Below, one piece after another: positions 5,704-35,537 of a stretch of 64,000 nt of DNA (positions are counted from its first letter, which is position 1; every line of letters starts with the position of its first letter). The notes under the pieces were generated by a model, which saw only the letters and a program-made list of their open reading frames with translations, ran no database searches and was not told where the DNA came from. This DNA comes from Arenicola marina. Taxonomy: Eukaryota; Annelida; Polychaeta; Arenicolidae. A program made the position numbers and the translations under genes. The stretch covers positions 40,830,035-40,894,034 of the forward strand of contig OZ025256.1 in NCBI GenBank assembly GCA_964019135.1, given 5' to 3'.

Positions 5704-5766
5704 ATCTTCTTTCTTCTACTCTTCTTATCTTCTTGTCCTCCTTCTTCAGTGAATGTTTTTCACATC

Positions 5767-13780: not shown

Positions 13781-13833
13781 AAGCTACTCACTTACGCTAT
13801 GCGGCCAATATGGCGTTGAGGGACCATACAGAG

Positions 13834-14181: not shown

Positions 14182-14262
14182 ATCTTCTTTCTTCTACTCT
14201 TCTTATCTTCTTGTCCTCCTTCTTCAGTGAATGTTTTTCACATCCTGGTCACGGCACCAATT

Positions 14263-14984
14263 TGTAAAATCCGACCCCTGGGTTAAGTCGAGGATTCGAG
14301 TCTCACATGTGGCATTTCGGTTCGGCCAGGGCGTGTAGACAGACTCCTGGACTGTACATTCACAAAGCAAGTCGCTTGAACATTTCAACCAAGCTTTTAT
14401 TCACAGCGGTAGTACATCTGGATTTTAATCTTCCGCTAGTTGTTAAGTTGTCTTCCGAGTTGTCTCGACTCTCGGATCCGTGCCCCTTATATACCCCTAC
14501 GCTTCTACACCCCTAGGAGTGTACTCTCTTATCAGGAATTTGGGCGGAATTTGGTGGAAGATGCTTTCACTCTCATTCTCTAGTTTGCGCGTCTGGATTT
14601 CGGGTCAGACTGGCTGGCGCCGAGTGTCACCTTATCACCCGTGATCTAGTTCCAGAGCGCAAACATCACGTTCGCCCGCCTCCCTTCCGGAGCTGTATAA
14701 GGGCCTAGCACTTCCGGGTCGACGGATCCAGAACGTTATAGAAAAATGTATATAGCTAATAAGCGTCGCGAGTACTGGGACACGCGATTGCATCATTACT
14801 GCTAGGTGCAGTGACCTAACCTACTTCCACGCGGATCCAGGACACATGACACTGACTCATGCGTCGTGAACCTTCTAGAACTATGACTAAGCGTAATATA
14901 TCCGGTACAGTAGTTACACAATGTCCTTTTCTGGGTGCAGATTAGTCACGCCCAGTGCGATAAGTACAGGGCGGGGATTTTACA
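14263..14984 (-). repeat. LTR 2 of gag-only retrotransposon array
   Basis: The 722-bp LTR has TGTAAAATCC and GATTTTACA ends, flanked by primer-binding site (left) and polypurine tract (right, 14985-15000). It contains the internal block absent from LTR 1 and lacks a short piece near 14420 seen in LTRs 1 and 3. Confidence 0.85.
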
Positions 14985-15252
14985 TTCCTCCCCCCCTTAA
15001 GATAAAAACCTCGTTTTTATCAATTATCCCCATAATCATACCACATTTCGAGACGTAAAATATACTCGCGATTAACATAAAAAGTAAAATATAGCGCGGT
15101 TAACATAATAAGTAAGCTATGATAAAATATAATATACGGATAAAAACGTTACATTCAGTACAATCGTAGGCATGCATCTATGATTATTATAACGTAAGTT
15201 TACGTATAACGCGATATCAGAATAATATTCGTAGCTAAGACATGTGACTTTA

Positions 15253-16017: not shown

Positions 16018-16045
16018 GATGATGGTATGCAGCTGATGATGATGT

Positions 16046-16659: not shown

Positions 16660-16853
16660 AAATTGCACTGACCACAGGTGCGGTAATAATGGTGCAACTC
16701 CCACCACTGCTTTTTAGACTGTGTCAGCGCTTTTTCCCGCTCTAGTACAGCACACCTACAGTGCCAACGAGCCCATTGAGAGGCGTCGTGGAATGGCTTC
16801 TTAGCGCAAATGAACAGATGACCAGATTGTCTGGCCTGCGTGTTCTTAATCAG
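16660..16853 (-). pseudogene. ORF A 3' half, unit 3 (split by DNA transposon)
   Basis: It matches the C-terminal half of ORF A and ends at 16853, where the inverted repeat of the 18.5-kb transposon begins. The other half resumes at 35386. Confidence 0.65.
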
Positions 16854-16878
16854 CCCATAAAAAAAAATTCTATAGAAT
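16854..16878 (+). repeat. Left terminal inverted repeat
   Basis: CCCAT, nine A, then TTCTATAGAAT. It pairs perfectly with 35361-35385. Confidence 0.9.
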
Positions 16879-17350
16879 ATTCTATAGTAAATTCTATAGA
16901 AATTTCTATAGTATTTTCGTATAGTAAATGCTATAAATTTACTATAGAATCTTCTATAGAAACTTCTATAGAGTACTATAGAAACTTCTGAAGAGTTCTA
17001 TAGAAACTTCTATAGAGTACTATAGAAACTTCTATAGAGTTCTATAGAAACTTCTATAGAAACTTCTATAGAGTACTATAGAAACTTCTATAGAAACTTC
17101 TATAGATTACTATAGAAACTTCTATAGAGTACTATAGAAACTTCTATAGAGTACTATAGAAACTTCTATAGAGTACTATATGCATTACTATAGCATTCTA
17201 TAGAAGTTTCTATAGTATCTCTATAGAAATTTCTATAGAATGCTATAGTAATGCATATAGAATTCTACAGTATATTCTATAGATTTGCATAGAAAATTCT
17301 ATATGCAAGTCTATAAAAATTTCTACAGAAAAGTCTATAGATCTCGAGTT
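16868..17350 (+). repeat. Left subterminal array of TTCTATAGAA palindromes
   Basis: Dozens of CTATAG-centred palindromes, many in units of about 22 bp of the form ACTATAGAAACTTCTATAG. Subterminal arrays of short motifs are the binding sites of accessory proteins in CACTA elements. Whether these are bound here is inference. Confidence 0.85.
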
Positions 17351-17807
17351 TAGATCTGTAGTAAAAATTCTATAATAAAGGTTTTAGACTATACAATTGA
17401 ACTTTCCAGAATACTCTTAATACGCCAAACTCAGCATGCTATAGAAATTTACTATAGGAAAAACTATAGAACCTGGTACAGATGTATACCATGAATATAT
17501 ATATCAATATATATGTCTGTTTAGGCATGCATTATTGCATATGAGCTCAACTGCACCATAGCTGCGAGTGAATAAATAAAAAAAGAATAATTTCATTTAA
17601 TCACACATGTTTATTATAGATTATAGATGGAACTTCAAGAATATAAAAAAAACAGATAACAATGAATTAATGAAAGTCAAACAGATTATACTTATACCAT
17701 CTAAACTAACTTAAGGCAAGCACTTTTGACCAACTAAACTAACTTAAATAAGGCATGCACTTAATTTCCACAATCAGGCCGGAACAGTCATCCACAAGTG
17801 CACATGA
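17351..17807. other. AT-rich spacer downstream of BEN gene
   Basis: No gene seen. Probably 3'UTR of the BEN gene and transposon filler. Confidence 0.4.
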
Positions 17808-20800
17808 TCAGCGCTGGCTTTTCCACACTTTGGTGGCGTTGTTCAATTTCTGGCGGATGAGCCCTTTGATTTGCACAACCGTGAGGTGTGCAAATCTCGC
17901 AGCTACATTGTCTGCAAAGAAGATAAGTTCTACATTGTAGATTCTCCTTGACAAGACACACGGCAGGCATGATGTATCTAGATCTATTTAATTGAATAAA
18001 TAGGACCATCTTTTACGTGCAATTCGGGATAATCTCATGGTGCTGTACTTAATACACTTGGACTCGCTTGGGAGCCTTAATATGTCAGTTGGTTGCACCC
18101 TGGCCTTCGATCAACAAGTCCTGCGGGTTCACAAAGCCGGTTTAGCTATAAAGCCCATAATCTAGGCACTTGCTCATACGTATATCCCGCCTCACCATCT
18201 TTTATCATCCCAGGAGGTCTAAGTTAGCCGTCGTGTTGCAGAACACGGGCCTAATTTAAACACTAATAAAACTGAGGTTTGACAGCTATATGCACTCACC
18301 GATCACAGCCTTCAGAGTGCCCTCCTCCATAGCCGGCTTGGCCACCGAGTCCGTCGCACCTGGGCGCGTTGTGCCCGACAGGGAATGGGTGGCCAAGTGC
18401 TCAGTTGTGTACACCGCCTGCAGGAGGTCGTTCACGAACTTCTGGGGTGACGACATGGAGCAGCGGGCCAATACTGACGCGCTTATTGCCTGCAAAAAAA
18501 ATAAGAGTAATTCAATGTATATACGTCAGACCGACGTCATAGACTTCATGCATGGCACGAACGCGTTGATATATCCCAAATGACAAACACACTCTTCCAT
18601 ATCTATTGTACAGAAAACATTCATTCTACTGTCATGCTTCCTTGAATAAAAATAGCGTTTTCAATTGACGTCCACCATTCCTCTTCTATCTAAAATAATA
18701 GTTTAACATTTTACGTAATAGTAAATTTACCGTTTTCTGGCCAACCGGGACTTCCATGGAATCTTCTGGGTCACCACTTGTTGCCTCCTCAAAAGTTGAA
18801 AGTGTGACCGCCTGTTTGGAGGTTGATGGGATCGGCTGACTCATCTGTTTTTTGCTCGGCGACAAAGATCCACGCTCCACAGCTTCCGTGGCCGGCCGAC
18901 TAAGTGTTGGGGATGTGTACTTGACTGACTGCTCCAACACATCCACCAATCTTGGAGCCACTTGAAAAGCAAAACCAGAAATAGGAACAGAAATTAATTA
19001 AAGCAGTTTACACAAGAGTGGTTACCACTAATAAAACCAATCCAATCAGAGACAATCTTTTACTCCCGTGGCTAATGCATCATACTTACATTGTCTGTTA
19101 CTATAAGTATTAAATTTAAAATGACAGTTCCAGGCTCCATCATTTAATTCATCAAAATGTCAGCTGTCGTACGTATAGAGCATTGAAAGAGAGTTTTAAA
19201 TGTGTTCTTCCACAGCTTAATTATATCAGGTGTAGGCCCGGTATCAGAAGTTTGGAGTATACATACATTTAGTCAACCTGATGGTGGAAACAAGAGTTTC
19301 ATTCTCGGCCGTCAAGTTTTTATTCTTCCGCAGTAGTTCTTCGTTAGCGCGCAGTAAATCTTCATTCCTCTTCTTTAGCTGCTTAACCTCACTGAGGAGG
19401 CTCAGGGGTTCATCATCAGATGAAGAGGCCTCTGTCATAGTAAACATCATCATGCCAATGACAATTTGCCACATTTTAATGATGTTTTAAGTGATTTAGA
19501 GATCATGATGTGTCTTTTTTTTTATCTTGTTACACCACACACTAATTGCATGCCACTTGCATATTTATCTTCTCCTTAAATGTGTATCATACATACTGGT
19601 ATTCAACATATTTGCACATATGCATCATAAGGCATTACAGTTTTGCACTTTTCAAATAGTGATAGGGTTTGATCAAATATACAATGCAATCTAAAATATT
19701 ACTTACCAGCACAGTCTGTCTCATTCTGGCTAGTACTTCAGAAGACTTGCTTTCGAGGCGAATTTTCTTAGATGCAGGCCCTTTCTTGCACTCCTGCAAC
19801 TGATCACACCATATATGGTCCCATTAACACGCAGACCACCTTTACTATTTAATTTTGTGTAAAAAAAATTCTAAGAATTTTTTTTATAATGATATAAAAC
19901 TATACATCTACATATTAGTCAAACCAGAGGAATACAGTTCTGGCCATCAGGCCTGCTAGTACTTCCATTTGGCAAGTATCCAAACAGTAACGATAATGTT
20001 TTTCATTTTGGATACATTCATCAGACTGAGATTCATGCAAGGGATGAGATAATTGGCATAGGCTAAATTATCTATAAAGCTACACAGTCTACATTAAAAC
20101 AAGCTTTCTACCATATGGGTATAAAACTTAGACGTAAGACGAAAATAATTTTAATTCTTCTTACACTCTCATCTTCAGAATTTTCATGGCAAATGGCTCT
20201 CTTGACTCGTTTGCCTTTTCCCAGTTCTGGAGTCTTCTTCAGCGCATCCTCGTCTTCTCCCTCAATAAACCTATCACGTCTGTTGCGTAGTCTCTTTGGA
20301 TCATCTGAAGAAAAAGTTTAATGAACAGTTATATCCTGATATTTATCATCCTTAACTGATGACTTCATTTAAATATATTATTTACTTATGATTTAATAAA
20401 TTTCACTTGTTTCAGGGTTATAGTAGGGTCAGCAATCCATGCATGTAAGTGGTATGTAATTTACCAGCACAAAAAAGGAGGATAGCCAATTAATTAATAA
20501 ACCAAGTAGCTTATCTAAGCTACCTAGCAAATTAAATTTATCATGACTAAGCTTAGGTCTACAAGCTAGATCTATATATATAGATCTAGCATAATAAGTT
20601 TAATCTAAAATTTAACAGAATTTCTAATCTAGATCTATATATAAAGTTTAATCCAAAAATTATCAAAAGTAACCAATCTATCCCAATCTATGTAAGCTTA
20701 AGCTTAATAAGTTTATTATAAATTTAAATATAAATTTAGATATAGATCTACCATAATTATGTAAATAGGGTACAAGTTAAATCTAAAATTTACCGTAATT

Positions 20801-21065
20801 ATGCAGCTTTGTAGGTCTAGATCTTATGACTTATCAGTTTATTCTAACTTCTAAGACTTCATGTAATTTCTATAGGGCTTTTAATATACTAACCATGTAT
20901 CAACAGAATCCTTGCTGGACATAACTGTTCTGTTTTTTTTCGCTCGTCCCGCCACTGCACATCTACATCCTGGCCTTCTTCAGGCTTGCCATTCTGGATC
21001 AGATCAATTGATCCCACCTCACACGTCCCATCCTCAAAATGGTACAACGCGTGAGTCGATGGCAT
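17808..21065 (-). CDS. BEN-domain protein, seven exons, carried by the transposon
   Basis: Exons on the minus strand: 21065-20894, 20304-20165, 19793-19707, 19429-19267, 18960-18731, 18489-18300, 17911-17808. All introns have GT..AG borders and phases agree, giving 361 residues. The start is the ATG at 21065 (MPSTHALYHFED); the frame upstream has no ATG. Exon 1 resembles the small N-terminal fold of BEN-type proteins (ALYHFEDGTCEVG, VDVQWRDE). Exon 2 and 3 are basic and acidic tracts, exon 4 is a coiled coil (LKKRNEDLLRANEELL). Exons 6-7 form the BEN domain (SSPQKFVNDLLQAVYTTEHL ... FAHLTVVQIKGLIRQKLN). BEN domains bind DNA, often palindromes, or partner chromatin proteins. It is divergent from the transposase gene. 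Confidence 0.75.
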
Positions 21066-21470
21066 AGTTGCTGTTTCGATTTTTAGAATTTCAACTGTTT
21101 GAACTAAGCTTACTCGTATGCGCGATCCGGATTCAACGGTGCAAAAATTCAAACTGTGAAACTCGCGGGATCTCGGATCCGGATTCGCGTCACAGGACCG
21201 CACTCGTTTTTTTTCTCCTAAACGTTTTGTATTTCAGGAAAGATTAATAGCAGCATAATATTCTATAATAAAGAAAGATATTTTTTAGCTTGTTGTGGAA
21301 TGATCGGCGCGGTTTGGAGTTGTGTTGAAGACTGTTTTATTTCATTTTATGTTTTATTAAAGCGAATTCACTCCGTGTCGAAAATACGAAAACAACTTCC
21401 GGTTGAAAAGAAAGTGCGTTTCGACGCAAGAAATTTGTTTGTATCAGTTAATTTTGACGATGCGACAATA
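21066..21470. promoter_or_regulatory. Divergent promoter region between BEN and transposase genes
   Basis: The two starts face away from each other over about 400 bp (or 235 bp if the transposase begins at the in-frame ATG at 21300). AT-rich around 21240-21295. No core element can be assigned with certainty. The arrangement suggests coordinated expression. Confidence 0.4.
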
Positions 21471-21683
21471 ATGGACGACGGCCGTAAAGGATCTTCGTAT
21501 AAACGGTATTTGTCAGATCCGACTTTGGAAATTCCTAGCTCGACCAAGCATTGGCGAAAAAGGAACGCGCCTCATGCTCATCCAACGCCACCGTTGCCGT
21601 TGGCGTTGGCGTTGTTACCGTGTGAAGATGCTCTGCCTGAAGATCACCAGGCGTTCGACGACAGCAGTGACTCTATTCAGCAG
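21471..21683 (+). CDS. Transposase gene, exon 1
   Basis: The frame starts at ATG 21471 (MDDGRKGSSYKRYLSDPTLEI), chosen because KRYL..P near the N-terminus is usual in this transposase family. An upstream in-frame ATG lies at 21300. The exon ends ATTCAGCAG before the donor GTGAGT at 21684, phase 0. The next exon is 9.8 kb away because a Gypsy element fills the intron. Confidence 0.6.
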
Positions 21684-22387
21684 GTGAGTAAATTATCGTG
21701 GCTCTCATTGTTATAACTGTACAAGGGGCATGCTATTCAGTTCCATTGGGGGGGGGGAGCTGTGCAAGAGTCATTTATTGAAATTCGCCCCGGAAACTGT
21801 CATAACAATGAAACTTCCGATTTACAAGAACATATTAACTGATTTGCATGAAAAAAAACTTGCTGTGGGAACTTCAAGTCACCGCCCGATAACTGTATAG
21901 CAACTCACCCTTCCTGAGACACTTGAGATTACACAATAAGTAAATGTTACTTTGTTGCACTTTGAAGCAGCAGATCGGCTTGATGGCGCCATTCACCATT
22001 TACTATTTACATACCTGTGAGATGCCATAGGTTTGAATTCCTTTGTCATGTTTTATCAGTTACTCTGTTTTAAATTATTGATGCATACCTAAAGTTACAC
22101 AAAGACAAAGTGAACTTGAAATCAATTGATGCCAATTTTGGTTATTTGCACGAAAGAAAACGTCTCTGAGCAGCAGCAACACTTGCGCATGCAAAGTTGC
22201 ATACAATCTAGGTACCCTCGTGAAATGATGCATTGGACTTTTCCAACTTGATCTAGATTTTCAACTAATAAGGTGGCAGCAGGATGACCTTCACCTTCGT
22301 ATAACTTACAAGATAACTGTCAAACCAACATTGTCTGCTCTATTGATTAACATGGCAGGTCATGTATTGTGAGGATATGAATCACAT
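21684..22387. other. Transposase intron 1, left part
   Basis: Non-coding, with a run of nine G at 21749-21758. Ends with ACAT, the left copy of the Gypsy target duplication. Confidence 0.5.
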
Positions 22388-23121
22388 TGTAAAAATGCCA
22401 TTCTTCAGCCCGGCGTGAAGAGTTTTACAAAAATAAATATTAAACGATTCCAAGTTCGAAAAATAACAAAAGACAAGAAAGTCTAATGTGAGTTGCGATC
22501 TGAGGCCAGGCGATCGACAAACTGCCCGCCTGTTTATTTGGTGCTTCTTATATACGGCTGTACATGGGCTACATTTGGTCACATGACCATGGACAATTCC
22601 ATGCCCCCCCCACCCCTCTTTTACGGGGGTCTCGGGAGCACGTGATGGTGGCAGGCAAAGTGCGCCCACCAGGCCTTGCTTATGAAATCTAGTGTCTGTA
22701 TATAAAACTAGCATTAGGTCACTCTAACCCAGCGGTTCACCCCAACCCACTTGGCCCTATTGTTCCCCAAAATATCGAACAACAGCTGTTGCTTAATCAT
22801 GTGATAGTCACGAGCATTGAGCCGCAACCAAAGACGCGAGGACAATATCCAAGGTCATGTCCTGGCCTCTCTGAGACTGTGACCCAGCCGTGGCGACCCG
22901 ACTTACTTAATACTCTCACCATTCCACTATAAACACTGGCTTATGTAAAGGGTTGTTTTCGTCGAGCGTATACTCTTATCTGAGATAACCAAAGGTCAGC
23001 CACAGCGAGCGTCAGAAAACGCTAAGCTTCGTAAACCGTAAGGGGGTTGAGTATGGTAAAATAAAATAAAATAAAATAAAACATTCGATATACTAAAATA
23101 CCTGAAGGAGCACATTTTACA
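22388..23121 (-). repeat. 3' LTR of Gypsy element
   Basis: 734 bp, TGTAAAAATG ... CATTTTACA on the plus strand. Contains (AAAAT)n near 23059-23080. Confidence 0.92.
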
Positions 23122-23320
23122 ATTCCTCCATCACCAAAATGTTTTTCTCCATAGAAAAACTTACAGTCATAACGCCTTAATCTCAAAAACATCAACGGTG
23201 AATATTATATAACCGTAAGTATTACTCAATTACGCAAATGTTGCATAGCCGCAGATATTAAACATAACATGAAAATCGAAGTAGCTATTTGTACTTCCGG
23301 TAATGTCACAATGGTTAGAG

Positions 23321-25138
23321 TCACTTCGATGCGAGCGGGATCTTGGGTGGCGATAAGGTAGGGTGACTCTTAAACACTTCATTGAATACTCGTTGTACGC
23401 CAGCTTCCACAGTTTCTCGTGTCGGTACCGCGGGTGACGTCACTGGGTCGTCGGCTTCCGTGGCTTTCCCCGGAGAACTGGATGTGGACATACCGACGAC
23501 TGTGCTGTCAACGGACGCCGCGCCGCGCCCCTCACCGGATGTTGTGACGAAGCAGGCCGTCGGCTCAGCTGGAATCGCTGAGGCCATTGACCTGCCTCGA
23601 AGGCAAAGAGCGTGACAGCGACCCCGCAGGTTCCAAGCGGCCCACAGCAACAATATGGCCGCCACGATGCAGGACACAGCCGCCACCCACCACCAGGTAG
23701 GTGATGGCCGCTGATGCCACTGTGGGGGCGGCAGAGGTTGCAGATTACGGACATCCGCCAACTTGTTGAATCTCACCGTGGCAGCGGTTTCCAGAGGCGC
23801 CATGTGGAGTTGTTGGACCCAGTCGACATTTGGCCGCAGACTGATGTTGACCTGATGCCATTCCAGGACCAGGCCGACAGTGTGGACCTGCACGCCCACC
23901 TGGGTGTACGGCCCGATCTCCAGCTCACATCCACCAGGGACGGGGATGGACCATGCCCCGGCTGTCAGTTGACCAGTCCGTCCCGATCTTCCCAGGCAAT
24001 GCCAGGAATACTCCGTCACGTCGGGAGTGGACACCAGCATCTCTGCACCTGCAACGGCTGCCCAGAATTTAGTTCCCGAGCTCACCTTTATTAGACAACG
24101 TTCTGTCCGATGACCACCGGAAATGAGTTCTCGTTCGCACGGAAAACCATCCAGCATGACGACTGTGGGGTCACAGATCACCGGATGACGACCCACGCAG
24201 ACAGCCGGTTGAAAGGCCCTCCCACTGGCTGTGTTGATGGCTATGACGGGGGATAGTTGGATCCGACCTGTCATATTTCCTAGGGGCATGGGGATGGCCT
24301 GCAATTTATATTGGATGTACAGGTCAGGACCAGGTATTGGAATGGTAGCCATATACACTAACCGGTCGGTTTCCGCCCATCTGGGTTCTACGCTGGCGAA
24401 CTGGTAATACCATTCCAGGGGGATGACCGTCGCGGTTTCCGTGAGCAACCGGCGCAGGTAGGCGGCAGGGAAGATCTCTTCCGTTAGGACCTGCCGCTCC
24501 AGCGCCATCCTCGCCCTCGTCCAGCGGTCCTCCTCGCGGTCACGCTGGTAGGCGGCCCGCTCCAGGTCGCTTATGGCCTCGATGAGTCGCAGCCGCTGGT
24601 CGGTTCCCCGAACAACATCACCCACGTGCCTTGTTAGGTAATTCAGGTTACGAGTGTTAACATTAATGGCCGCCACAGAATCGTTTACAACCGCTACTAA
24701 GTTCTGCATGTCCAAATATAATGCCTGTTGATGTTGTGCGCTCTTTTTAATATAATTACGCAGCTCCTCAACCTCGGCCTCTGTCGCCGTGCCAAATAGT
24801 TGGTGACTTAAATCACCAACAAAATTAAGTAACCCCCGCTTTTTCCGCATCGTTGTGTTAGCAGTGGCGTGCCAACGAAAGGCCAACGGACGTTCCCTGA
24901 TGGCCAACAGCCGTCCATGGTATTGGTCCCTCATACTCTGGGGAATGGCGGCTGTTTGTACCATTCCTTCAAGTGTCTGGAGGACGTTATCAATGTCACT
25001 AGAGGGGGTTTCCATGGAAACTAGAACCTTCCACTCCGCGGTCTTCACGTAGACGTAATCTTCCTTTGCGACGCGCACGCCCACGGGAAGTTGGGTCGGT
25101 TCGAGGCCAGCCACTGACGCGAGGCACAGGGAAGTCAT
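23321..25138 (-). CDS. env: Envelope glycoprotein of Gypsy element
   Basis: The frame is open from 25186 but begins with GTG. The first ATG is at 25138 and opens a signal-peptide-like MTSLCLASVAG, so it is chosen. Just upstream, CTCTACTTTCAG ending at 25157 is a good splice acceptor, consistent with errantivirus env being made from a spliced RNA. Visible features are a furin-type site RKKR followed by a hydrophobic GLLNFVGDL fusion-peptide-like segment, a conserved LFGTATEAEVEEL helix, and one membrane span about 100 residues before the end (WWWVAAVSCIVAAILLLW). This fits the F-like Env of insect and other invertebrate errantiviruses. The C-terminal tail is unusually long at about 100 residues. 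The frame looks intact. Confidence 0.85.
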   Translation of the reverse strand: MTSLCLASVAGLEPTQLPVGVRVAKEDYVYVKTAEWKVLVSMETPSSDIDNVLQTLEGMVQTAAIPQSMRDQYHGRLLAIRERPLAFRWHATANTTMRKKRGLLNFVGDLSHQLFGTATEAEVEELRNYIKKSAQHQQALYLDMQNLVAVVNDSVAAINVNTRNLNYLTRHVGDVVRGTDQRLRLIEAISDLERAAYQRDREEDRWTRARMALERQVLTEEIFPAAYLRRLLTETATVIPLEWYYQFASVEPRWAETDRLVYMATIPIPGPDLYIQYKLQAIPMPLGNMTGRIQLSPVIAINTASGRAFQPAVCVGRHPVICDPTVVMLDGFPCERELISGGHRTERCLIKVSSGTKFWAAVAGAEMLVSTPDVTEYSWHCLGRSGRTGQLTAGAWSIPVPGGCELEIGPYTQVGVQVHTVGLVLEWHQVNISLRPNVDWVQQLHMAPLETAATVRFNKLADVRNLQPLPPPQWHQRPSPTWWWVAAVSCIVAAILLLWAAWNLRGRCHALCLRGRSMASAIPAEPTACFVTTSGEGRGAASVDSTVVGMSTSSSPGKATEADDPVTSPAVPTRETVEAGVQRVFNEVFKSHPTLSPPKIPLASK

Positions 25139-25186
25139 CACCAGGAGCCGCACCAACTGAAAGTAGAGCGAAAACACACCCACCAC

Positions 25187-28100
25187 TCACAACCGCCGCT
25201 TAATCTTCCTCCTGGGACGTGGCCTGACACGAATGCCAGCTGGGGCTAACCTTAATCTCACTCTATTTACCGACTGCTCTTTACCCCTCCTATCCCTAAT
25301 CTTAATAACAGGCCCAGTTACCTTTACTATACGATAACCTGGGTCCCATCGCGTTGTAAACGTCAATCGATCGGGTGGCGCTTTGAGCAGTACGGACTGC
25401 CCGACCCGGAAGGCGGGGCCAGTCTCTTCAGACAGCCGTTTCCGGTTATACTTCCGGCCATCGTCTGTTTCGATTTGGGCACGCACCTGGGCTTCTTCCA
25501 GATCGCGTAACCACTGGACGCTAGGTGCACCGTCGGCATGGGTAGAAACCGGGAGAATCGCATCCCGGCCATACACCACATAGTATGGTGTATACCCAGT
25601 CACCCCTGGTGTCGTCCTGAGTGCCAGGAGGACACTCGGTAGGACCTCCTCCCACCGCCGCGGTTGATTGCGAACCGCTTTCTCAATCGCAGACTTGAGA
25701 GTCCGGTTGGTCCTCTCGACCTTCCCGTTCGCCTGGGGATGTAAGGCGGTCGTTGTCCTGTGTTCAATGCCTGCAGCGCTGAACCAGGCCGCCATTTGAC
25801 GGTTCCGGAACTCTCCACCATTGTCAGTTATGACAATGGCGGGGCAACCGTGCCTACCCACGACAGCCACCTGCCACGCCCTTTGAACTTCTGCCGCCGA
25901 TTTGGAAGGGATGGGCTCTACCTCAGGCCACCCGCTTAAGTAATCCACAACTACCAAAGCATACCTGTTTCCCTTTTCTGATTCAACGAATGGGCCAATC
26001 AGATCCATCCCCACCATCTCGAAGGGGAAAGATGAGATGGGTATCTCCCCCATGCGATTTTTGTTAACTTTGCGCGAATGTACCGCACACGTGCCACAAC
26101 GATCTACCCATCCTTCTACATCTTTCCGGAGCCCTGGCCAGTAATAATATGGTTTAATTCGCAGGTATGTTTTCAGGGCCCCCATATGTCCTGCTTCATT
26201 GTGGGCGCGCTCATCTATACGGCGCCGCCCACCACCTGCCTGCGGAACTACAAGCCGCGGCAGTTCATTCCGTGACATTCCTTCAACGGAATATAAAAGT
26301 CCATCAATGAGTAATGACTCACCTGTATCAGACTCTTCCTGGGCTTCCTCCCAGGCCGCGAGGAACTCAGCCTTCTGAGAGAGTGCAAGCGACCGACTGC
26401 GCAATCGGTCGGCTCGCAGCAGCCGCTCTCTCAGCGCCTTCTCGCTGGCGGTCCAACCAAAGGCCGCCATGCAGGGTCCTTGACCCTCATTGGCTTCCTG
26501 ACCTACCTGACCGCCCTCTTGGCTCTCGGATGCCTTGATCCGTGAGAGCATGTCGGCCCTTATATTATTAGGACCCGCACGATATTTAATTTTGGCACCG
26601 TACTCCGCTATTAACACTGCCCATCTCTGAATTTTAGTATTGTTCATTTCCTTAGTAAATAAACAAAGCAGCGGTTTATGGTCAGTGTATACCGTAACAT
26701 CTTCCCCATAAATGTACGGACGGAGTTTGCATAAAGCATAGACGACTGCATATGCTTCTTTCTCAATCGCGGCCCATCTGAGCTGTGCTCCGGAGAGTTG
26801 GTGGGAGATATAATGTACGACCCGTTCTACTCCCACCTCATCTTCCTGGACCAGGATCCCACCTATGGCGTACCCACACGCATCCGTGTAGAGCTTATAG
26901 GGGTGACCAACCCGAGGGTAGGCCATCACCCGGTCCGACGTGAGCACAGACTTCAGCCTCTGAAAAGATTCCCGCTCCTCCTGGCCAAAGATGAACGGTA
27001 CCCCTTTTCGAGTCAGAGCCACGAGAGGCGCTGCTGTTTTGGCGTAGTGTGGCATACACTGACGGTAGTAACCGGTCATGCCAAGGAAAGATCTAATCTC
27101 TTTGACGTCAGTGGGCTCCGGGAGGTCGCTGATAACCTGGCACTTATCCGCGATCGGCCGGACGCCTGCCGCCGATACAACGTACCCTAATAATTCCACT
27201 TCCGGCAGGCGAAACTTACATTTTGTTTCCTTGACCTTCAAACCTGCCTTAGCGAGGCGGGATAGCACCGCCCTTACGTCTGCCTCATGCCGCTCCAGTG
27301 ATGGAGAGAAGATGATTATATCATCGATATAGACCATACATAACTTACCAATGAGTCCACTCAATACCTTATTCATGGTGCGTTGGAAATTTGGTGGTCC
27401 GTTTGACAGTCCCATTGGCATGCGGACAAACTCAAACAACCCCAGATGACACGCAAATGCTGTCTTTGAAATGTCGTGTTTATCGACGGGAATTTGCCAG
27501 TAACCTGCCTTTAAGTCTATGACAGAGAATACTGTACTACCCCTAAGTTGGTCGAATATTTCTTGAATATTCGGAAGAGGATATCGATCTTTAACCGTGA
27601 CCGAATTGAGCTTCCGGTAATCAACACAAAAACGGGTGGACCCATCCTTCTTAGGCACAAGGGTGACTGGTGATGCCCAGGGGCTGGAACTAGGGCGAAT
27701 AACTCCTAAACGAAGCATATCCTCCACTTCCTTTTCTATGACCTCAAGCTTGCTTAATGGGACACGGTAAGCCCTTTGTTTAATTGGAGGACTAGTGGTT
27801 TCGATCTTTATAGGATCCAAGGCACAATAACCAAGGGGTGATTCCTCATCAGCAAATACAAAGGGATATTCCTTCATATAAATTGAATGCAATTCATTAA
27901 TTTGCCCCTGTTTTAGGTCTGCCTTGCCTAACGAGAATAAACGACCAAAGAAAGAGAAAACACGTGTTTTAACATTGACCTGGGCTTCACCTTCACGTAA
28001 CAAATCCATCCCGAAAACAATATCAAAGTTCAAATTTCGGATAACAATAAACTGCCGGCGTACACCGAGAAACGGAATATCCAGTACAGTCGTACCTACG

Positions 28101-28231
28101 GCTTCTAATACTTCCCCTCCCGGGCCGCAAAGGCTCGGGGCTGATCGTAAGATCTCACCACCGGCTATGGCTGTCCATAACTCATAACTGACAGCAGATC
28201 TACAAGCACCTGTGTCTATCAAGGCAGACAC
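25187..28231 (-). CDS. pol: Pol polyprotein: protease, RT, RNase H, integrase
   Basis: At least 1014 residues, open a few codons upstream and overlapping the gag end in the -1 frame, so translation by -1 frameshift is likely. Domains in order: aspartic protease (ALIDTGA at residues 3-9), RT with YIDD at about 301, RNase H beginning at TDACGYAIGG (about 449), integrase with an HHCC zinc motif (HNEAGHMG ... CGTC), catalytic D in VGMDLIGPF, D in VITDNGGEF and E in VERTNRTLK, and a GPY/F-like C-terminal module (WDPGYRIVKVTGP). All key residues are present. The stop is immediately before the env frame. Confidence 0.95.
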   Translation of the reverse strand: MSALIDTGACRSAVSYELWTAIAGGEILRSAPSLCGPGGEVLEAVGTTVLDIPFLGVRRQFIVIRNLNFDIVFGMDLLREGEAQVNVKTRVFSFFGRLFSLGKADLKQGQINELHSIYMKEYPFVFADEESPLGYCALDPIKIETTSPPIKQRAYRVPLSKLEVIEKEVEDMLRLGVIRPSSSPWASPVTLVPKKDGSTRFCVDYRKLNSVTVKDRYPLPNIQEIFDQLRGSTVFSVIDLKAGYWQIPVDKHDISKTAFACHLGLFEFVRMPMGLSNGPPNFQRTMNKVLSGLIGKLCMVYIDDIIIFSPSLERHEADVRAVLSRLAKAGLKVKETKCKFRLPEVELLGYVVSAAGVRPIADKCQVISDLPEPTDVKEIRSFLGMTGYYRQCMPHYAKTAAPLVALTRKGVPFIFGQEERESFQRLKSVLTSDRVMAYPRVGHPYKLYTDACGYAIGGILVQEDEVGVERVVHYISHQLSGAQLRWAAIEKEAYAVVYALCKLRPYIYGEDVTVYTDHKPLLCLFTKEMNNTKIQRWAVLIAEYGAKIKYRAGPNNIRADMLSRIKASESQEGGQVGQEANEGQGPCMAAFGWTASEKALRERLLRADRLRSRSLALSQKAEFLAAWEEAQEESDTGESLLIDGLLYSVEGMSRNELPRLVVPQAGGGRRRIDERAHNEAGHMGALKTYLRIKPYYYWPGLRKDVEGWVDRCGTCAVHSRKVNKNRMGEIPISSFPFEMVGMDLIGPFVESEKGNRYALVVVDYLSGWPEVEPIPSKSAAEVQRAWQVAVVGRHGCPAIVITDNGGEFRNRQMAAWFSAAGIEHRTTTALHPQANGKVERTNRTLKSAIEKAVRNQPRRWEEVLPSVLLALRTTPGVTGYTPYYVVYGRDAILPVSTHADGAPSVQWLRDLEEAQVRAQIETDDGRKYNRKRLSEETGPAFRVGQSVLLKAPPDRLTFTTRWDPGYRIVKVTGPVIKIRDRRGKEQSVNRVRLRLAPAGIRVRPRPRRKIKRRL

Positions 28232-28260
28232 TTTCTTAATGCCCTGGTGTCCCGATATCC

Positions 28261-29343
28261 CTATTGAGATTGTGGGGCACCAGGAGCTCGGAAGTCCCCC
28301 GATTGTGTTTTACAATCTCGCCGGAAATGCCCGACTTCCCCACATCCAAAACATGTAACATGCCTGCCTCCTCCAGTACCTCCAGTATATCGTTTGGGGG
28401 TTCCCCCATGCACATTACCCCGAGCTTCTAGTTTGGCTAATCTAGTCATAATTTTCTCAAGGGCGGTTGATAATGGCACGGTGTTTTCGCCTACCTGATT
28501 GATGGTGCCGGCCGGTCTCTTGCTCCTTCCCCGCAGCGCCAGCATCTGATCCTCCACCGCCATAAAGTTTTCCATAAGAGTCTGGATCCCGTCCAGCGTA
28601 GGGTCCCGCATAGCGAAGAGTTGTCGCGCCAGCTTGTCATTTCCGACAGCCTGAGCGAGAGCCGGGATCATACTCCGCCTCAGATCATCGGGACCGACGT
28701 CTGGCAGGGCCTCCCGGAGGGTTATCTGAAATCTTCGCCAAAACACGGCAATAGATTCATCGGCAAACCTCCGCATGGCCATCAGCTCTGTAAAGGCCCG
28801 CCGCTCTTCGTCCCCCGACACAAACTGTCGAACAAGACCAGGGCGGATGTTGATCCAGGCCGCCTGACCTGGGCGGTACCCCTCCAACAGACCGAGGAGC
28901 GCCCGCTTGAGCTCCCCACGTGCTGTCACCAAGGCCACCTCCAGACCCGCACCTGGTACTTGCCTTTCCGATGCGTCGATCTCCCGGATCCACTCCCGGG
29001 AGACCTGCTCGCTCTCGCCGCCGCATGGGATGATACGCGACCAGAGCTTCTTTTCTTGGCGCGCTAGCCGGGCGTCGGCCAGCAGCTGCGCCTGGGATGC
29101 GATGAGGGCGTCGGCGATCTCCCTCGCGCCCGCAACAGCGACATGGTCCGGGGCTGCCATGGCTGGGGCAGGACCTCCTACCACCACGTCCTGTTGCGCC
29201 CCTTGTAAGGCAAGGAGTGCCTGCGCCGCCGCTGCGTGTGCCGCTGCCGCCGCTGCGTCTGCCGCCGCTGCGTCTGCTGCGTCCGCGTCTGCTCCTGCCA
29301 CATCAGCCGCTGCCGCCTGTCCCGCTACTGGCACACCATTCAT
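28261..29343 (-). CDS. gag: Gag polyprotein of Gypsy element
   Basis: 360 residues from the ATG at 29343, about 80 bp after the 5' LTR. The N-terminus is an alanine-rich run (AAADAAAAAAHAAAAQ), followed by a capsid-like helical region (FWRRFQITLREALPDVG) and one zinc knuckle CFGCGEVGHFRRDC near the end. TAG ends the frame at 28261 within the pol overlap. Confidence 0.9.
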   Translation of the reverse strand: MNGVPVAGQAAAADVAGADADAADAAAADAAAAAAHAAAAQALLALQGAQQDVVVGGPAPAMAAPDHVAVAGAREIADALIASQAQLLADARLARQEKKLWSRIIPCGGESEQVSREWIREIDASERQVPGAGLEVALVTARGELKRALLGLLEGYRPGQAAWINIRPGLVRQFVSGDEERRAFTELMAMRRFADESIAVFWRRFQITLREALPDVGPDDLRRSMIPALAQAVGNDKLARQLFAMRDPTLDGIQTLMENFMAVEDQMLALRGRSKRPAGTINQVGENTVPLSTALEKIMTRLAKLEARGNVHGGTPKRYTGGTGGGRHVTCFGCGEVGHFRRDCKTQSGDFRAPGAPQSQ

Positions 29344-29403
29344 GATATGTGAAGAACCATTGAAAAGTCAAAACGTAATATGGAAAACTAATTTTAAAAT
29401 AGA

Positions 29404-29424
29404 TCCTGGCAAAGCTCGCCAATT
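29404..29424 (-). other. Primer-binding site of Gypsy element
   Basis: TTGGCGAGCTTTGCCAGG directly beside the 5' LTR. A close match recurs at 38161-38176 next to an eroded element. Confidence 0.65.
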
Positions 29425-30159
29425 TGTAAAAATGCCATTCTTCAGCCCGGCGTGAAGAGTTTTACAAAAATAAATATTAAACGATTCCAAGTTCGAAAAA
29501 TAACAAAAGACAAGAAAGTCTAATGTGAGTTGCGATCTGAGGCCGGGCGATCGACAAACTGCCCGCCTGTTTATTTGGTGCTTCTTATATACGGCTGTAC
29601 ATGGGCTACATTTGGTCACATGACCATGGACAATTCCATGCCCCCCCCCACCCCTCTTTTACGGGGGTCTCGGGAGCACGTGATGGTGGCAGGCAAAGTG
29701 CGCCCACCAGGCCTTGCTTATGAAATCTAGTGTCTGTATATAAAACTAGCATTAGGTCACTCTAACCCAGCGGTTCACCCCAACCCACTTGGCCCTATTG
29801 TTCCCCAAAATATCGAACAACAGCTGTTGCTTAATCATGTGATAGTCACGAGCATTGAGCCGCAACCAAAGACGCGAGGACAATATCCAAGGTCATGTCC
29901 TGGCCTCTCTGAGACTGTGACCCAGCCGTGGCGACCCGACTTACTTAATACTCTCACCATTCCACTATAAACACTGGCTTATGTAAAGGGTTGTTTTCGT
30001 CGAGCGTATACTCTTATCTGAGATAACCAAAGGTCAGCCACAGCGAGCGTCAGAAAAAGCTAAGCTTCGTAAACCGTAAGGGGGTTGAGTATGGTAAAAT
30101 AAAATAAAATAAAATAAAACATTCGATATACTAAAATACCTGAAGGAGCACATTTTACA
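29425..30159 (-). repeat. 5' LTR of Gypsy element
   Basis: 735 bp, near-identical to 22388-23121. Confidence 0.92.
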
Positions 30160-30163
30160 ACAT

Positions 30164-31480
30164 GTGCAGATCAGATAAACATTACAAATATGTCTAGATT
30201 TCTTACTCAACTCTTACAGCAGAGAAATAATTCAAAAATTTCATTATTCTGACAGTTTTCTGGGCCATGATTAATCGACGCTTGCCTTACTAGGTAACGT
30301 AACCTGTCGCATGCAGTCTGGACAGTATATCATGCGAAAAGACAGCTTAAGTGCTAAAAACCCCTAAATTTGAAGCTTTCAATTTTTCAAGGAGTAGTTA
30401 AGGCTGTATCCATGTGAGACATGCAATGTTACATACATGTTTGCGTTATGAAGTCGTTTTATAGCAATTATAGCCAATTATGTGTATTACTTACTTGAAT
30501 GTCTTACGCGAAAAGATCTCATAATGCAAATATTTAAAGTCATATGTCGCGACAAGTTATGCCATCTAGTAAGGCAACTGGTAAGGGTTTATCCAACATG
30601 GCGGCAGCCCAACCAGCCAACTATCGCTAAAGGGCATCCACATTGATATACCTTTTGATGGTTAAAACCAAACAAACTGGAGAAACAAAATATGGTTTAT
30701 TTTTGCAAGGGGAAAAGATTAGAAACCAAATTAGCCTGATCGGCACTTCCAAATCGTGTCCAAACTGAAAACTGAGTGATACATACATGTTTCAACCCCC
30801 AATATTATACTTTGCCACCATTGACAGAAGTGTACAAGTCTGTATTTGCAGTAATTTATAAACTTTATAAATAACAAAACCAGATCTATACTGCTGTCTA
30901 GCCATGACAAATGAGGAATTATGCGCAGACAACCACCAACTCTCATCGCAAGATGTTACCTTCAAGATTTTGAGCAAAATAATGATTGAATATCATTACT
31001 CAAGATTGATCAGCTGTTAAAGAATATGTCAACACAGGGGATGCAAATTCAAAAGATAATATATTGAATGAGAGAGAAATTTGATATAACATCTCTATGA
31101 TATGCTATCAAATTTTGGGGTAGATCTACCTCCCTGCATTAGCATCATGAGAAAGCAGACCAGTGATCATCTCCTAGCTACATTGTATCAGATCTTGCAG
31201 GAAAAATCTTGCCAAATACAGATATATGTAGTATAAGTTGATATTTCATTCTTATTATGCAATTTTGCTTTGAACATTGTCAAACAACTAGCGAGCAACC
31301 AGGTCACAGGTATTTGCCATGCATGCATATGGAATTGGTTCAGGTGCCTGGCTTCAACATTTCTTTTTTCTGGGATAGGTTGGCTCTATAGCATTGTTAT
31401 TTATATAACAAATGAAAAAAATACAATTTGGAAAGTCATATGGTTACAAATGTGCTGTTATTTATTATATCACTATGCAG
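30164..31480. other. Transposase intron 1, right part
   Basis: AT-rich, no coding frame of note. It ends in the acceptor CACTATGCAG. Confidence 0.5.
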
Positions 31481-31564
31481 GGGGAACCTGCAGAGCCAGA
31501 ACTTGACAGTACTGACATCGACAGACTACAGGATGAAGAACTTCTGGATTTGCAACGAAATATG
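31481..31564 (+). CDS. Transposase gene, exon 2
   Basis: An 84-bp, phase 0/0 exon between acceptor TATGCAG and donor GTATGT. It encodes an acidic stretch GEPAEPELDSTDIDRLQDEE. Confidence 0.6.
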
Positions 31565-31739
31565 GTATGTGAAATAAACCAATAAACAAATAAATGTGCT
31601 ATATGCAGTGAGTGAAAACACTTTCACCGTTGGTATTAAACTGTCTGCAATACCATTGAATGAGTATGTGTCTCTCGTAATATAGTTACTTATGTGCAAA
31701 AGAGATATTCTATACGTATTTTATCTGTTGTATCTTTAG

Positions 31740-34079
31740 ATACCAGCAGCTCCGCTAGGTATTGGAGGCTACGATCCAGAGCAAGCTTCACCGGCATTCT
31801 CATTGTTTGGATATTCTGATGCTGAAGCAGAGATGCCCATATACCCTGGGGCATCATTGAATAGAGGTCAACTTTTGGCACTTGTTGTCGGCTACGCCAT
31901 GGATTCCGGAGTCAGTGGCCGTGGTTTGCAGAAACTGCTTGAGTTATTAAATGTTATGGTCCCAGGCTGTGTACCAAAATCAAGTTACTTTCTGAACAAA
32001 ACCTTTTTTCACTGGGCAGATAAAGCAGAGTTGCATTTCTACTGCCCCAACTGTGAATCTTATTTGGGGACAACAGTTGGTAATCCAGAGTGCCCAAGTT
32101 GCGGTAATGCAGTTAGCGACGAATTGTGCCGTAACGGAAATAACTTCTTTCTTGTCATGCCTCTGGCGCATCAGATAATGGAATTGTTAAAGGACCCTTC
32201 GCTTCAGGACTCCATATTGACACGAAACATTGAACGGCGAGACCGTGCTAGCGTCAAAGAGGATGTGACTTCAGGGGATCTCTATCAACAGCGATTTACC
32301 CGGAACGTCAACAATCTGACACTATCTCTAAACACTGACGGCGCTTCCGTATTTAAGTCCTCAGGTTACTCCATATGGCCAATCTTATGCACAGTGAATG
32401 AACTTCCCCTCATAGAACGATCCAAGCATGTACTGCTCCACTCTTTATGGTTTGGCCCAAAGAAACCCAACGTTGACACTTACTTTGAGCCGTTCACGAC
32501 TGAGTTGCAAAGACTCTATGCAACTGGACTAGACTGGGTTGATAAGGAAGGTGTAGAGCGTGTAACAAAGGTAGCGGTATTGGTGTGCATATGTGACGCT
32601 GTGGCACGCGCTATGGTGCAAAAGTTTAAACAGTTCAATGGCGTGTATGGATGTGGTTTTTGCCTTCACAAAGGGGAATGTGTTGCTAAAGGAAAGGGTC
32701 ACACACGTGTATATCCTCACGAAGATCCAATGCCTGCATTAAGGACTCACAATGAAACCATCGAACATGCGACAGCAGTTGCAGAGCGTGGAGGTGTCGC
32801 TGATGAGAAAGGTGTAAAAGGGGCTAGTCCTCTACTGTTGCTTCCGAAGTTTGACATTGTCAAAGGGTTTGTCCCTGAATATATGCACTCCGTGTGCCTT
32901 GGTGTTACAAAACAGTTTGTCTCCATGTGGACAGAAGGGCGCGCTGGAAGTGACCGGGGGTGTCATATAAGTTCAGCACAGCTAGGAGCCATGGACGAAT
33001 GTTTAGCAGGAGTAATACCCCCTAATGAAGTTATTCGAAGCCCAAGACCCCTAAAGGAACGACACTATTGGAAAGCGTCAGAATGGAGGGCGTTTCCAGT
33101 CTTCTACTCACCAATTGTACTTAAAGGTGTGCTGCCTAAACGCTTCTACCAACACTGGTTGTTGTTCGTATTCGCGATCTACACCCTTCTTCTTCCGCAA
33201 GTAGCTCGTGAGAAGCTGGACAAAGTGTCCCTTTGCTTGTTCAAATTTGTTGTGGAAATTCCAGAACTGTATGGCAAGGAGTATGTTTCATACAATGTAC
33301 ATTCAATGTTGCATCTCGTAGACTGTGTGAAGAGGTGGGGTTTGTTGTGGTCAAACTCGGCTTTTGTCTTCGAAAACATTAATGGAAAGTTGATGGATTT
33401 GTTTTATGGTACGCAAGGTGTCCCTTTTCAAATGTTCAAGTATTTCTTTGCGCGTAACAAGCTTCAGAAATATGCGCCGGATTTATTTTCTGACGCAGCA
33501 GACCTTGAATATTCCTTGATGGCAAGTTTCGTGTGCAACAATATTTGGTCTCGACACACAGTCTCTTTTCAAGAGGGAACTGCCGGTCTCGGAAAGCCCA
33601 AACTCAGATTACTGACAGAGGAAGAAAAGGCGGCGGTGATTGGTTCCAATATAGATATGCGCTGCAGAATAAGTGAGAAATTGGGGACAGTTTTCCAGAG
33701 AGCAGTCATCTCTTCAAAACTGTATTCAACGAAACAATACGCAAATAACTTCAAAAGGAACAATTCTGTCGTTCAGTTACGAAATGGACTGTTTGCACAA
33801 AAATATGCGTTCATTTCGCTTAAGGCTAACTGTCCGTGCTTGGAAGGATGTGCATGTTCAGACTTATTGGTGTTCTGTAACACCCTTTCCAAATCCAGGC
33901 ATCAAATGGTGACGCTGGATCATTATTCGGGAGTTAATCTCTTACAGCATATTGTAAAAGTGGAAGAGAGCCCTGATTTGAGTGTGTGCAGTACTGCCGA
34001 CATACAGTTCAAATGTATCCTCATAGACCAGGGTGGTTTTAAGTATGTAATTGGAATTCCCAAATTTGAGACAGACTGA
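31740..34079 (+). CDS. CACTA/Tnp2-like DDE transposase, exon 3 (core)
   Basis: 779 codons after the acceptor ATCTTTAG, in phase with exons 1-2, giving about 878 residues in all. Features: a helical N-part (SLNRGQLLALVVGYAM), a zinc ribbon CPNC...CPSC, then the catalytic core with NTDGASVFKSS (first D near 32337), VCICDAVARAM (second D near 32595), a GCGFCLHKGEC cysteine cluster, and PEYMHSVCLGV (third acidic residue, E near 32877, where relatives often have D). Downstream YWKASEWRAF, YNVHSMLHL and FVFENINGKL are family blocks in animal Tnp2/Transposase_21-like proteins. It would cut and paste the element. No stop interrupts the frame. Confidence 0.88.
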   Translation: MPAAPLGIGGYDPEQASPAFSLFGYSDAEAEMPIYPGASLNRGQLLALVVGYAMDSGVSGRGLQKLLELLNVMVPGCVPKSSYFLNKTFFHWADKAELHFYCPNCESYLGTTVGNPECPSCGNAVSDELCRNGNNFFLVMPLAHQIMELLKDPSLQDSILTRNIERRDRASVKEDVTSGDLYQQRFTRNVNNLTLSLNTDGASVFKSSGYSIWPILCTVNELPLIERSKHVLLHSLWFGPKKPNVDTYFEPFTTELQRLYATGLDWVDKEGVERVTKVAVLVCICDAVARAMVQKFKQFNGVYGCGFCLHKGECVAKGKGHTRVYPHEDPMPALRTHNETIEHATAVAERGGVADEKGVKGASPLLLLPKFDIVKGFVPEYMHSVCLGVTKQFVSMWTEGRAGSDRGCHISSAQLGAMDECLAGVIPPNEVIRSPRPLKERHYWKASEWRAFPVFYSPIVLKGVLPKRFYQHWLLFVFAIYTLLLPQVAREKLDKVSLCLFKFVVEIPELYGKEYVSYNVHSMLHLVDCVKRWGLLWSNSAFVFENINGKLMDLFYGTQGVPFQMFKYFFARNKLQKYAPDLFSDAADLEYSLMASFVCNNIWSRHTVSFQEGTAGLGKPKLRLLTEEEKAAVIGSNIDMRCRISEKLGTVFQRAVISSKLYSTKQYANNFKRNNSVVQLRNGLFAQKYAFISLKANCPCLEGCACSDLLVFCNTLSKSRHQMVTLDHYSGVNLLQHIVKVEESPDLSVCSTADIQFKCILIDQGGFKYVIGIPKFETD

Positions 34080-34619
34080 TTAATCTTTTTGGGGTAACAT
34101 CAATATTTAACGTATTGTAAGTTCTGTAAGATAAATGCCCTGTAGACGGCCATGGGATCGAACCGATGTTCACTAAATTTAATGTTCACTAGGACTGGAG
34201 TTTGTATAATACTTCTCAATTAAGATATTGTATTACGATTTAATGGGCTGCCGATTTAAATTTTATTCCGTTGCAGTGCGTGTATGGTATGTTTTCCTGT
34301 TGGATAACAACATATTGCAGGTCAAGCCTTACATATGTAATAAACTATATCATTATGTTACAAACGGATAATACAATAGGGCCTAACAATATGTTGATGC
34401 CATTCAATCCTAAAACAAAACGTTGACCGAAAAATAAAGAATGTGAACGTGTAATTGTGTCGGTCTATTAAAATTGTCATGTAACTAAATGCTACGGTAA
34501 TATGTGCTAATCTACACTGCATACGAACAATATTCGTCGCTGTATATATATCTTGTGTTTTTAAGTCGATCCACTATATAATATACTATTAGCATAACAA
34601 TATCTTTTGCTTTTTTTAT
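34080..34619. other. Transposase 3' flank
   Basis: AT-rich, no gene seen. Confidence 0.4.
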
Positions 34620-35372
34620 TCTTTAGTATGCTATAAATTCTACTATAGTAATTTATAAAACGTCTATATATTTCTATAGAGCTTAATTCCTATATGTTTA
34701 AATTGTCACTTTAGAATTCTGTAGTATTCTATAGAATCTGCTATAGCAATCTATGGAACTTAATTTCTATATATATATATAGTGCAATACTTTATCATAT
34801 AATTCTATAGTATTCTATGAAATCTACTATAGCAATCTATGGAACTTTTTATAGTGTAATTAAGACTACTATAGAAGTCTATGGTATTTTATAGAATCTA
34901 CTATAGCAATCTATATGGAACTTCTTTAATCGCTCTATATTGCAATACTTTAATATAGAATCCTATGGTATTCTATAGAATTACTATAGCAATTTATGGA
35001 ACTTTCTATAGTGAAATAATTTACTGTAGAATTCTATAGAATCTACTATAGCAAACTATGGAACTTTCTATAGTGAAATAATTTACTGTAGAATTCTATA
35101 GTATTCTATAGAATCTACTATAGCAAACTATGGAACTTTCTATAGTGAAATAATTTACTATAGCATTCTATAGTATTCTATAGAATCTACTATAGCAATC
35201 TATGGAACTTTCTATAGTGAAATAATTTACTATAGAATTCTATAGTATTCTATAGAATCTACTATATCAATCTATAGAACTTTCTATAGTGCAATAATTT
35301 ACTATAGAATTCTATATTATTCTATAGAATCTACTATAGTATTCTATAGAATTCTATAGAATTCTATAGAAT
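34620..35372 (+). repeat. Right subterminal array of CTATAG palindromes
   Basis: About eight imperfect units of roughly 70 bp, each with TTCTATAGAAT, CTACTATAGCAA and GGAACTTTCTATAGTG, ending in three ATTCTATAGA steps before the terminal repeat. It shares the 10-bp palindrome with the left array although the units differ. Confidence 0.85.
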
Positions 35373-35385
35373 TTTTTTTTATGGG
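35361..35385 (-). repeat. Right terminal inverted repeat
   Basis: ATTCTATAGAA, nine T, ATGGG; the exact reverse complement of 16854-16878. Confidence 0.9.
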
Positions 35386-35537
35386 AGGGCGTGGCACCAG
35401 CGGCAACAAAAAAGGGGCTCACCTTGGCCGAGGACATTGGTTTTCAGACCCTGGCACTCACAGCAAAACCAACTGGATGGCAGCTCTCGTGGTGGCGGTG
35501 GGCGGTACTGGCGAATGGCAGCGGTCCTATCTGTCAT
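35386..35537 (-). pseudogene. ORF A 5' half, unit 3 (split by DNA transposon)
   Basis: The ATG is at 35537. It continues the frame lost at 16853 and precedes LTR 3 by 81 bp. Confidence 0.65.

Follow-up and report, generated by a model that had tools for sequence, protein, structure and literature searches.

A two-gene transposon with a BEN-domain protein

The DNA analysed here, a 64-kb stretch of contig OZ025256.1 of the annelid Arenicola marina (referred to as the window), contains at positions 16854..35385 a transposon that encodes a Tnp2-type transposase and, in divergent orientation, a protein with a BEN domain. We consider it probable that this is a two-gene cut-and-paste transposon of the animal TRC/CACTA type, in which the BEN protein binds the palindromes arrayed inside both ends of the element as an analogue of TNPA, the protein that has been reported to bind the subterminal repeats of plant CACTA/En-Spm elements. 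The two genes are laid out as follows.

17808..21065, minus strand: BEN gene predicted from sequence, seven exons, 361 residues, with GT/AG borders and an open frame
20894-21065, 20165-20304, 19707-19793 and 19267-19429, minus strand: BEN exons 1-4
18731-18960, minus strand: BEN exon 5
18300..18489, minus strand: BEN exon 6, most of the BEN domain
17808..17911, minus strand: BEN exon 7, last part of the BEN domain, including the recognition helix RQKLNNATK
31475..31564, plus strand: putative first coding exon of the transposase, 30 residues, from frame and GT/AG borders only
31740..34079, plus strand: main transposase exon, 779 residues, Transposase_21
33573..34049, plus strand: putative BAH-like C-terminal domain, transposase residues 612-770

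An earlier note on this DNA, made without database searches, had proposed a Tnp2-like transposase and a divergent seven-exon BEN gene, and both are borne out by Pfam matches over the cut-off and by readable GT/AG borders. The 361-residue protein matches the BEN domain family (PF10523, E-value 1.2e-7); its first part has no Pfam match, and PF03004 (Transposase_24, TNPA-type) is not among the Pfam matches of the protein. The tnpA gene has been described as highly diverged between species. By sequence, the nearest solved structure is that of BEND6 (7yul, E-value 2.3e-18), and in the protein search a bird BEND6, which covers 70% of the BEN protein at 32% identity, was the sole relative from another species. 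When the BEN region alone served as protein query, none was confirmed among 57 candidates, and viral contigs held no relative of the BEN protein.

The transposase matches Transposase_21/tnp2 (PF02992, E-value 1.3e-13, over the cut-off); in alignment A1, 21 of 24 proteins, the window protein among them, match this family. Catalytic-type residues are present at D200, D286 and E545, with C305xxC308 and H521xxxH525 between the second D and the E, and a RAG1-like fold is predicted for the core. The BAH-like region is missed by Pfam and shows 17-32% identity in alignments with relatives from other animals. Two cysteine pairs (C102, C105, C118 and C121) coincide with a weak match to the zinc-binding family TerY_C over residues 102-121 (E-value 0.011, below the cut-off). 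Viral contigs and prokaryote genomes contained no relative of the transposase, a comparison of profile A2 with PDB sequences returned nothing relevant, and among the papers listed for BAH domains with transposases or DNA transposons, which in the wider search were 15 of 427, none is on such a protein to judge by title.

Palindrome arrays at both ends of the element

16868..17469: subterminal array on the BEN side with 35 CTATAG cores, many at steps of 10 and 12 bp
34643..35371: subterminal array on the transposase side with 34 CTATAG cores at more varied steps

The window contains 19 copies of the palindrome TTCTATAGAA, where 0.08 are expected; nine lie at the left end, ten at the right end and none elsewhere, in agreement with the subterminal arrays claimed in the earlier note. 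Of its CTATAG core there are 35 copies in the first 0.65 kb of the element (1.4 expected), 34 in the last 0.8 kb (1.5 expected) and two in between (3.2 expected). These observed and expected counts lead us to reject a chance origin of the arrays. From core to core the steps are mostly 10 or 12 bp in the left array and more mixed in the right one.

Relatives were sought in the host genome of 867 Mb, the single genome examined, in which all match counts are lower bounds; positions prefixed with C refer to it. A 220-bp copy at C7:31806765-31806984, flanked by TT, consists of the ends and the array alone, and its first 136 bp are identical to the left end of the window element. To judge from this copy the arrays alone can move, and the absence of both genes fits what non-autonomous copies do. 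Two viral-contig matches to the terminal pattern were dropped, as they contain no TTCTATAGAA. As a separate observation, the CTATAG arrays of several copies (L013, L027, L015 and L022) end inward in CCATGG- or CATGG-like units, as if one palindrome had replaced the other.

Recurrence of the gene pair across the host genome

Grouping of 61 matched stretches gave 54 transposase loci, and the 69 BEN stretches, 33 from the window protein as query and 36 from the Pfam model, were grouped into 28 BEN loci. Of the 54 transposase loci, 14 have a BEN match at a distance of no more than 15 kb; random placement of the loci, a crude null that ignores near-identical copies, gave a mean of 0.05 and a maximum of 2 in 2000 draws. 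The orientation is divergent at 13 of the 14 pairs, and the 14th consists of two merged tandem copies, each of which is divergent by its coordinates. With a BEN query from C5, a 15th pair was found at C9:30.29M. The pairs span three transposase clades, whose likeness to the window is 100-79%, 42-40% (48% in one partial copy) and 38-35%. Copies without the BEN gene had been named in the earlier note as a finding that would refute its reading. Of the 12 transposases that are matched over at least 700 of the 779 residues in one stretch, many of them near-identical, 10 lie within 15 kb of a BEN match and two do not (C11:15.67M, whose transposase match is in two stretches, is left out of this count), and the 220-bp copy on C7 lacks both genes.

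Judged by these sequences, the pairing is not a one-off: BEN is kept together with the transposase and the arrays in relatives within the same genome, and the genome-wide pairing disfavours a one-off capture of BEN. The BEN partner is either old in this group of transposons or was gained more than once. Ten BEN loci besides the window were found with the window protein as query; eight of these hold 11-36 CTATAG cores in 3-kb pieces, the low ones being C11 and C18:22.08M with 1 to 3 cores, and at three of the ten (C3, C6 and C18:29.95M) an ATATGGG terminus adjoins the array.

Several loci were set aside or stand by themselves. C6:10.95M is a broken copy: it matches the first 105 BEN residues and has an array and an ATATGGG terminus, but no transposase in the 9.5 kb examined. 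The pair at C11:19.8M is a relic with stops present and neither array nor terminus in the stretch examined; within it (C11:19803600-19814700) the transposase DNA is 91-92% alike to the window, the BEN region 73-74% and another BEN stretch 78%, which makes the pair either a mosaic or a case of unequal rates. At C11:12518182-12560472 a BEN exon occurs 16 times at an exact spacing of 2,809 bp, adjoining a transposase of the 36% clade, and is a tandem amplification inside or beside an element. When the C5 BEN domain was the query, 141 of 150 scored matches spanned only the last-exon part (query residues 44-93); perhaps these are numerous deletion derivatives in which the last BEN exon has been retained next to the array.

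Palindrome and recognition helix differ together

C5:29726651-29740403: element with CCATGG (ACCATGGT) arrays of 53 and 19 cores, duplication AA
C10:17216830-17228233: element with CCATGG (ACCATGGT) arrays of 27 and 10 cores, duplication TA

The arrays of these two elements, both of which belong to the 40-42% transposase clade, hold no CTATAG. Between 9 and 10 CCATGG cores are likewise found at each of the downstream ends of C5:17.1M, C20 and C3:31.6M. Elements with a 35-36% transposase carry CTATAG, with 14/16 cores at the two ends of C7:16.25M and 18/11 at those of C11:15.67M. Both ends were counted in six elements and the 220-bp copy, over array stretches that we chose; outside the chosen stretches, L070-L073 hold 1 to 4 CTATAG each.

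Helix 5 of the BEN domain was read in 11 copies other than the window, nine of the CTATAG class (C3, C7:28.4M, C9:1.54M, C9:1.05M, C1, C18 twice, C7:16.3M and C11:15.67M, with C18:22.08M placed in the class by its BEN sequence and holding one CTATAG in its stretch) and two of the CCATGG class (C5:29.7M and C10); C13 gave none. The helix is RQKLNNATK in the window and contains KLNN in all nine further CTATAG-class copies, and in the two CCATGG copies the sequences are REKLSNVTK and REKISNVVK. The helix-5 residues with which BEND6 touches DNA bases have been reported as R254, N261, N262 and K265 (PMC10206803); three of the four are kept in the window protein and R254 is replaced by Gly, with the numbers placed by alignment spacing. 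The position of the base-contacting N261 is occupied by Asn in the CTATAG class and by Ser in the CCATGG class, and other residues of the helix differ between the classes too. Going by sequence, such a joint difference of palindrome and helix is what would be expected if the BEN protein reads the palindrome.

This result also bears on a rather unlikely alternative, according to which BEN travels with the transposon and acts in silencing or transcription, as a repressor, an insulator or an anti-silencing factor, and the transposase itself binds the arrays. BEN-solo proteins have been described as repressors and insulators, fungal DNA transposons have been reported to carry TET/JBP as an epigenetic accessory, and the transposase has the cysteine pairs in the weak TerY_C match mentioned above. 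The joint difference of palindrome and recognition helix between lineages, which may have arisen in one event, argues against this alternative; the silencing and end-recognition roles may moreover coexist, as they do for TNPA.

An end-to-end second copy and constraint on both genes

C3:56535949-56544887: 8,939 bp, diverged end-to-end copy with both genes and arrays

The copy on C3 has the termini CCCATATAAAA, AG on both sides and arrays of 47 and 28 cores. Its transposase, 78-79% alike to that of the window, is broken between residues 668 and 697. All parts of the BEN protein find a match in the copy, exon 5 the weakest. Between the window and the C3 copy the ratio of nonsynonymous to synonymous substitution rates (dN/dS) is 0.17 for BEN, with dS saturated, and 0.135 for the transposase; between the window and the C11 relic it is 0.25 for BEN and 0.24 for the transposase. 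With dN/dS between 0.135 and 0.25, both genes are therefore under constraint.

It has accordingly to be weighed whether the BEN gene could be a captured host gene with no role in transposition, in the manner of Pack-type capture. The gene is intron-rich and BEND6-like over 70% of its length; against this, BEN stands beside a transposase in three clades, two of which are only 35-42% alike to the window, and its dN/dS is 0.17-0.25, so that we regard such a capture as very improbable.

Boundaries, insertion site and size

16854..35385: whole transposon, 18,532 bp with and 10,756 bp without a nested long terminal repeat (LTR) element, from terminal inverted repeats, empty sites and lengths
16854..16878, plus strand: left terminal inverted repeat starting with CCCAT, 25 bp, 100% complementary to 35361-35385
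35361..35385, minus strand: right terminal inverted repeat, perfect partner of the left one
16852..16853: left copy of the target-site duplication AG; empty sites read ATCAG/CGCGTGG
35386..35387: right copy of the target-site duplication AG; the base after it carries one substitution relative to the empty sites
5064..6429: uninserted target-repeat copy 1, empty site 5552-5553
13542..14985: uninserted target-repeat copy 2, empty site 14030-14031, duplicate of copy 1
22388..30159, minus strand: nested gypsy-type LTR element of 7.8 kb, separate from the transposon, with frames that resemble gag, pol and (weakly) env

The perfect inverted repeats starting with CCCAT that the earlier note had reported are confirmed as 25-bp repeats, CCCATAAAAAAAAATTCTATAGAAT, at both termini. 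The exact ends of the element are fixed by the two uninserted target copies within the window, which match its flanks on both sides of the insertion point; relative to copy 1 there is an indel of about 90 bp farther to the right. The filled site reads ATCAG at the left and AGGGCGTGG at the right; comparison with the empty sites indicates that AG was duplicated on insertion and that one substitution lies beside it. Duplications of 2 bp (AG, AG, TT, AA and TA) are present at all five elements with both ends located, an empty site being at hand for the window only. The termini are CCCATA in the window, the C3 copy and the 220-bp copy on C7, and CCCTTA in the elements on C5 and C10.

The transposon proper measures 10,756 bp and is not giant, as the earlier note had called it, because 22388-30159 is a separate LTR element that sits between the BEN gene and the transposase gene. 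Its LTRs are 99.6% alike, and ACAT is found on both sides, at 22384-22387 and 30160-30163. Neither this nested element nor the two uninserted target copies had been recognised in the earlier note. The env-like frame of this young LTR element has a weak match to Baculo_F (E-value 0.00055, below the cut-off).

Since the window is rich in other repeats, one might think of an ordinary host locus that contains a BEN gene and some repeat without these forming one mobile unit, but the empty sites, the terminal repeats, the duplication and the end-to-end second copy on C3 leave this next to no probability.

Elsewhere in the window, positions 1-16361 contain a direct duplication of about 8.5 kb (99.7% over 6 kb and 98.5% over 1.8 kb), with frames that resemble a non-LTR retrotransposon, in which an endonuclease and a reverse transcriptase were recognised by eye, and a gag-like frame of the CCHC kind. 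Positions 53782-63092 are occupied by large minisatellites, a 30-bp unit repeated 67 times and a 41-bp unit repeated 165 times, with 97% match and strong GC skew. The Rfam scan of the window gave no match over gathering scores.

Relation to known transposons and BEN proteins

Transposase_21, CCC ends and a 2-bp duplication place the element with the animal TRC elements, with which it also shares the animal host and which have been described as SmTRC1 of Schistosoma mansoni and as TRCs of Tribolium and Aedes, with sizes of 4.5, 5.2 and 9.2 kb (DeMarco et al., 2006; PMC1636069). The TNPA-like candidates of that report, SmTRC-PrA/PrB, arise by alternative splicing of one unit and are given there as having no counterpart in other TRC elements (PMC1636069).

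Plant CACTA/En-Spm elements have in common with the window element a Tnp2-type transposase, subterminal repeats and two element-encoded proteins; the window element differs from them in its CCC ends, its 2-bp duplication, its BEN partner and its divergent genes. The duplication of plant CACTA elements is 3 bp long. With CCCAT ends and an AG duplication in place of CACTA termini and a 3-bp duplication, the CACTA-like assignment of the earlier note stands in the sense of an animal TRC element and falls in the sense of a plant-type CACTA.

The CMCT clade has been described by a DDE transposase in which the motifs C(2)C and H(3-4)H separate the second D from the E (PMC12730594). The window transposase contains both motifs and shares the predicted RAG1 core fold with the RAG1/Transib/CMCT transposases, from which it differs by its putative BAH-like C-terminal domain and the 2-bp duplication. 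As in BEND6 and the BEN-solo proteins Insv and Elba, the BEN domain has a helix KLNNxxK, but here it is encoded by a transposon and its proposed targets are CTATAG or CCATGG arrays. Insv has been reported to bind the palindrome TCCAATTGGA and variants TCYAATHRGAA; the half-site TTCTA is also present in a variant of this consensus, a likeness that is suggestive only.

Evaluation of a TNPA-like role

That BEN may fill the role of TNPA, as the earlier note had suggested, is favoured in two respects, by the pairing at 14 of 54 loci and by the fit of BEN and palindrome seen in their joint shift. A number of observations weigh against it. No BEN match lies within 15 kb of 40 of the 54 transposase loci; C17:20.89M (with an ATATGGG terminus and seven CTATAG cores) and C9:7.77M (with 15 CTATAG cores) are nearly full-length transposases without a BEN match in that distance, the flanks themselves not having been read. 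Conversely, 14 of the 28 BEN loci lack a transposase match at a distance of up to 15 kb, and at C3:56.33M and C1:73.26M last-exon matches of the C5 BEN query lie 12-13 kb from a transposase in non-divergent orientation. As many paired loci are near-identical within a clade, they represent three lineages and not 14 independent cases, and with the CCATGG copies in a single transposase clade, one event may account for the joint shift. Saturation of dS limits the BEN comparison with the C3 copy, and the cysteine pairs of the transposase could form a DNA-binding zinc ribbon. With the bird BEND6 as the one relative from another species, the pairing is documented for this genome only, and in the main text of the TRC paper (PMC1636069) the words BEN and second gene are absent. 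Our literature search, which covered titles and abstract openings and had most subscription papers and Repbase outside its scope, found no paper that describes a BEN and CACTA/TRC pair and none that names both Pfam accessions together.

If the BEN protein is indeed an analogue of TNPA, its dimers would bind each palindrome and would fill the arrays cooperatively, many of the steps of 10-12 bp being close to one helix turn, and they would mark both ends and bring them together for the RAG1-like transposase. The protein may also control the two divergent promoters, by analogy with TNPA in Spm. In one lineage the palindrome would have changed between CTATAG and CCATGG, and the recognition helix along with it; the BAH-like end may tether the transposase to nucleosomes.

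Implications

We put forward more tentatively that the ends of animal TRC/CACTA transposons are recognised through an element-encoded BEN protein whose helix co-evolves with the palindrome, beside a RAG1-type transposase with a BAH-like chromatin domain, and that such elements are a possible source of BEN-solo proteins such as BEND6. The 2006 work did not settle what acts like TNPA in animal TRC elements, and the BEN partner offers a named DNA-binding fold for this role. The binding code of the BEND6 BEN domain has been stated to be unknown, and the two palindrome classes make BEN binding code testable with natural pairs. The pairing also raises the question whether host BEN-solo genes derive from transposons or the reverse. 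If our reading is true, these elements would provide a natural series of BEN code changes.

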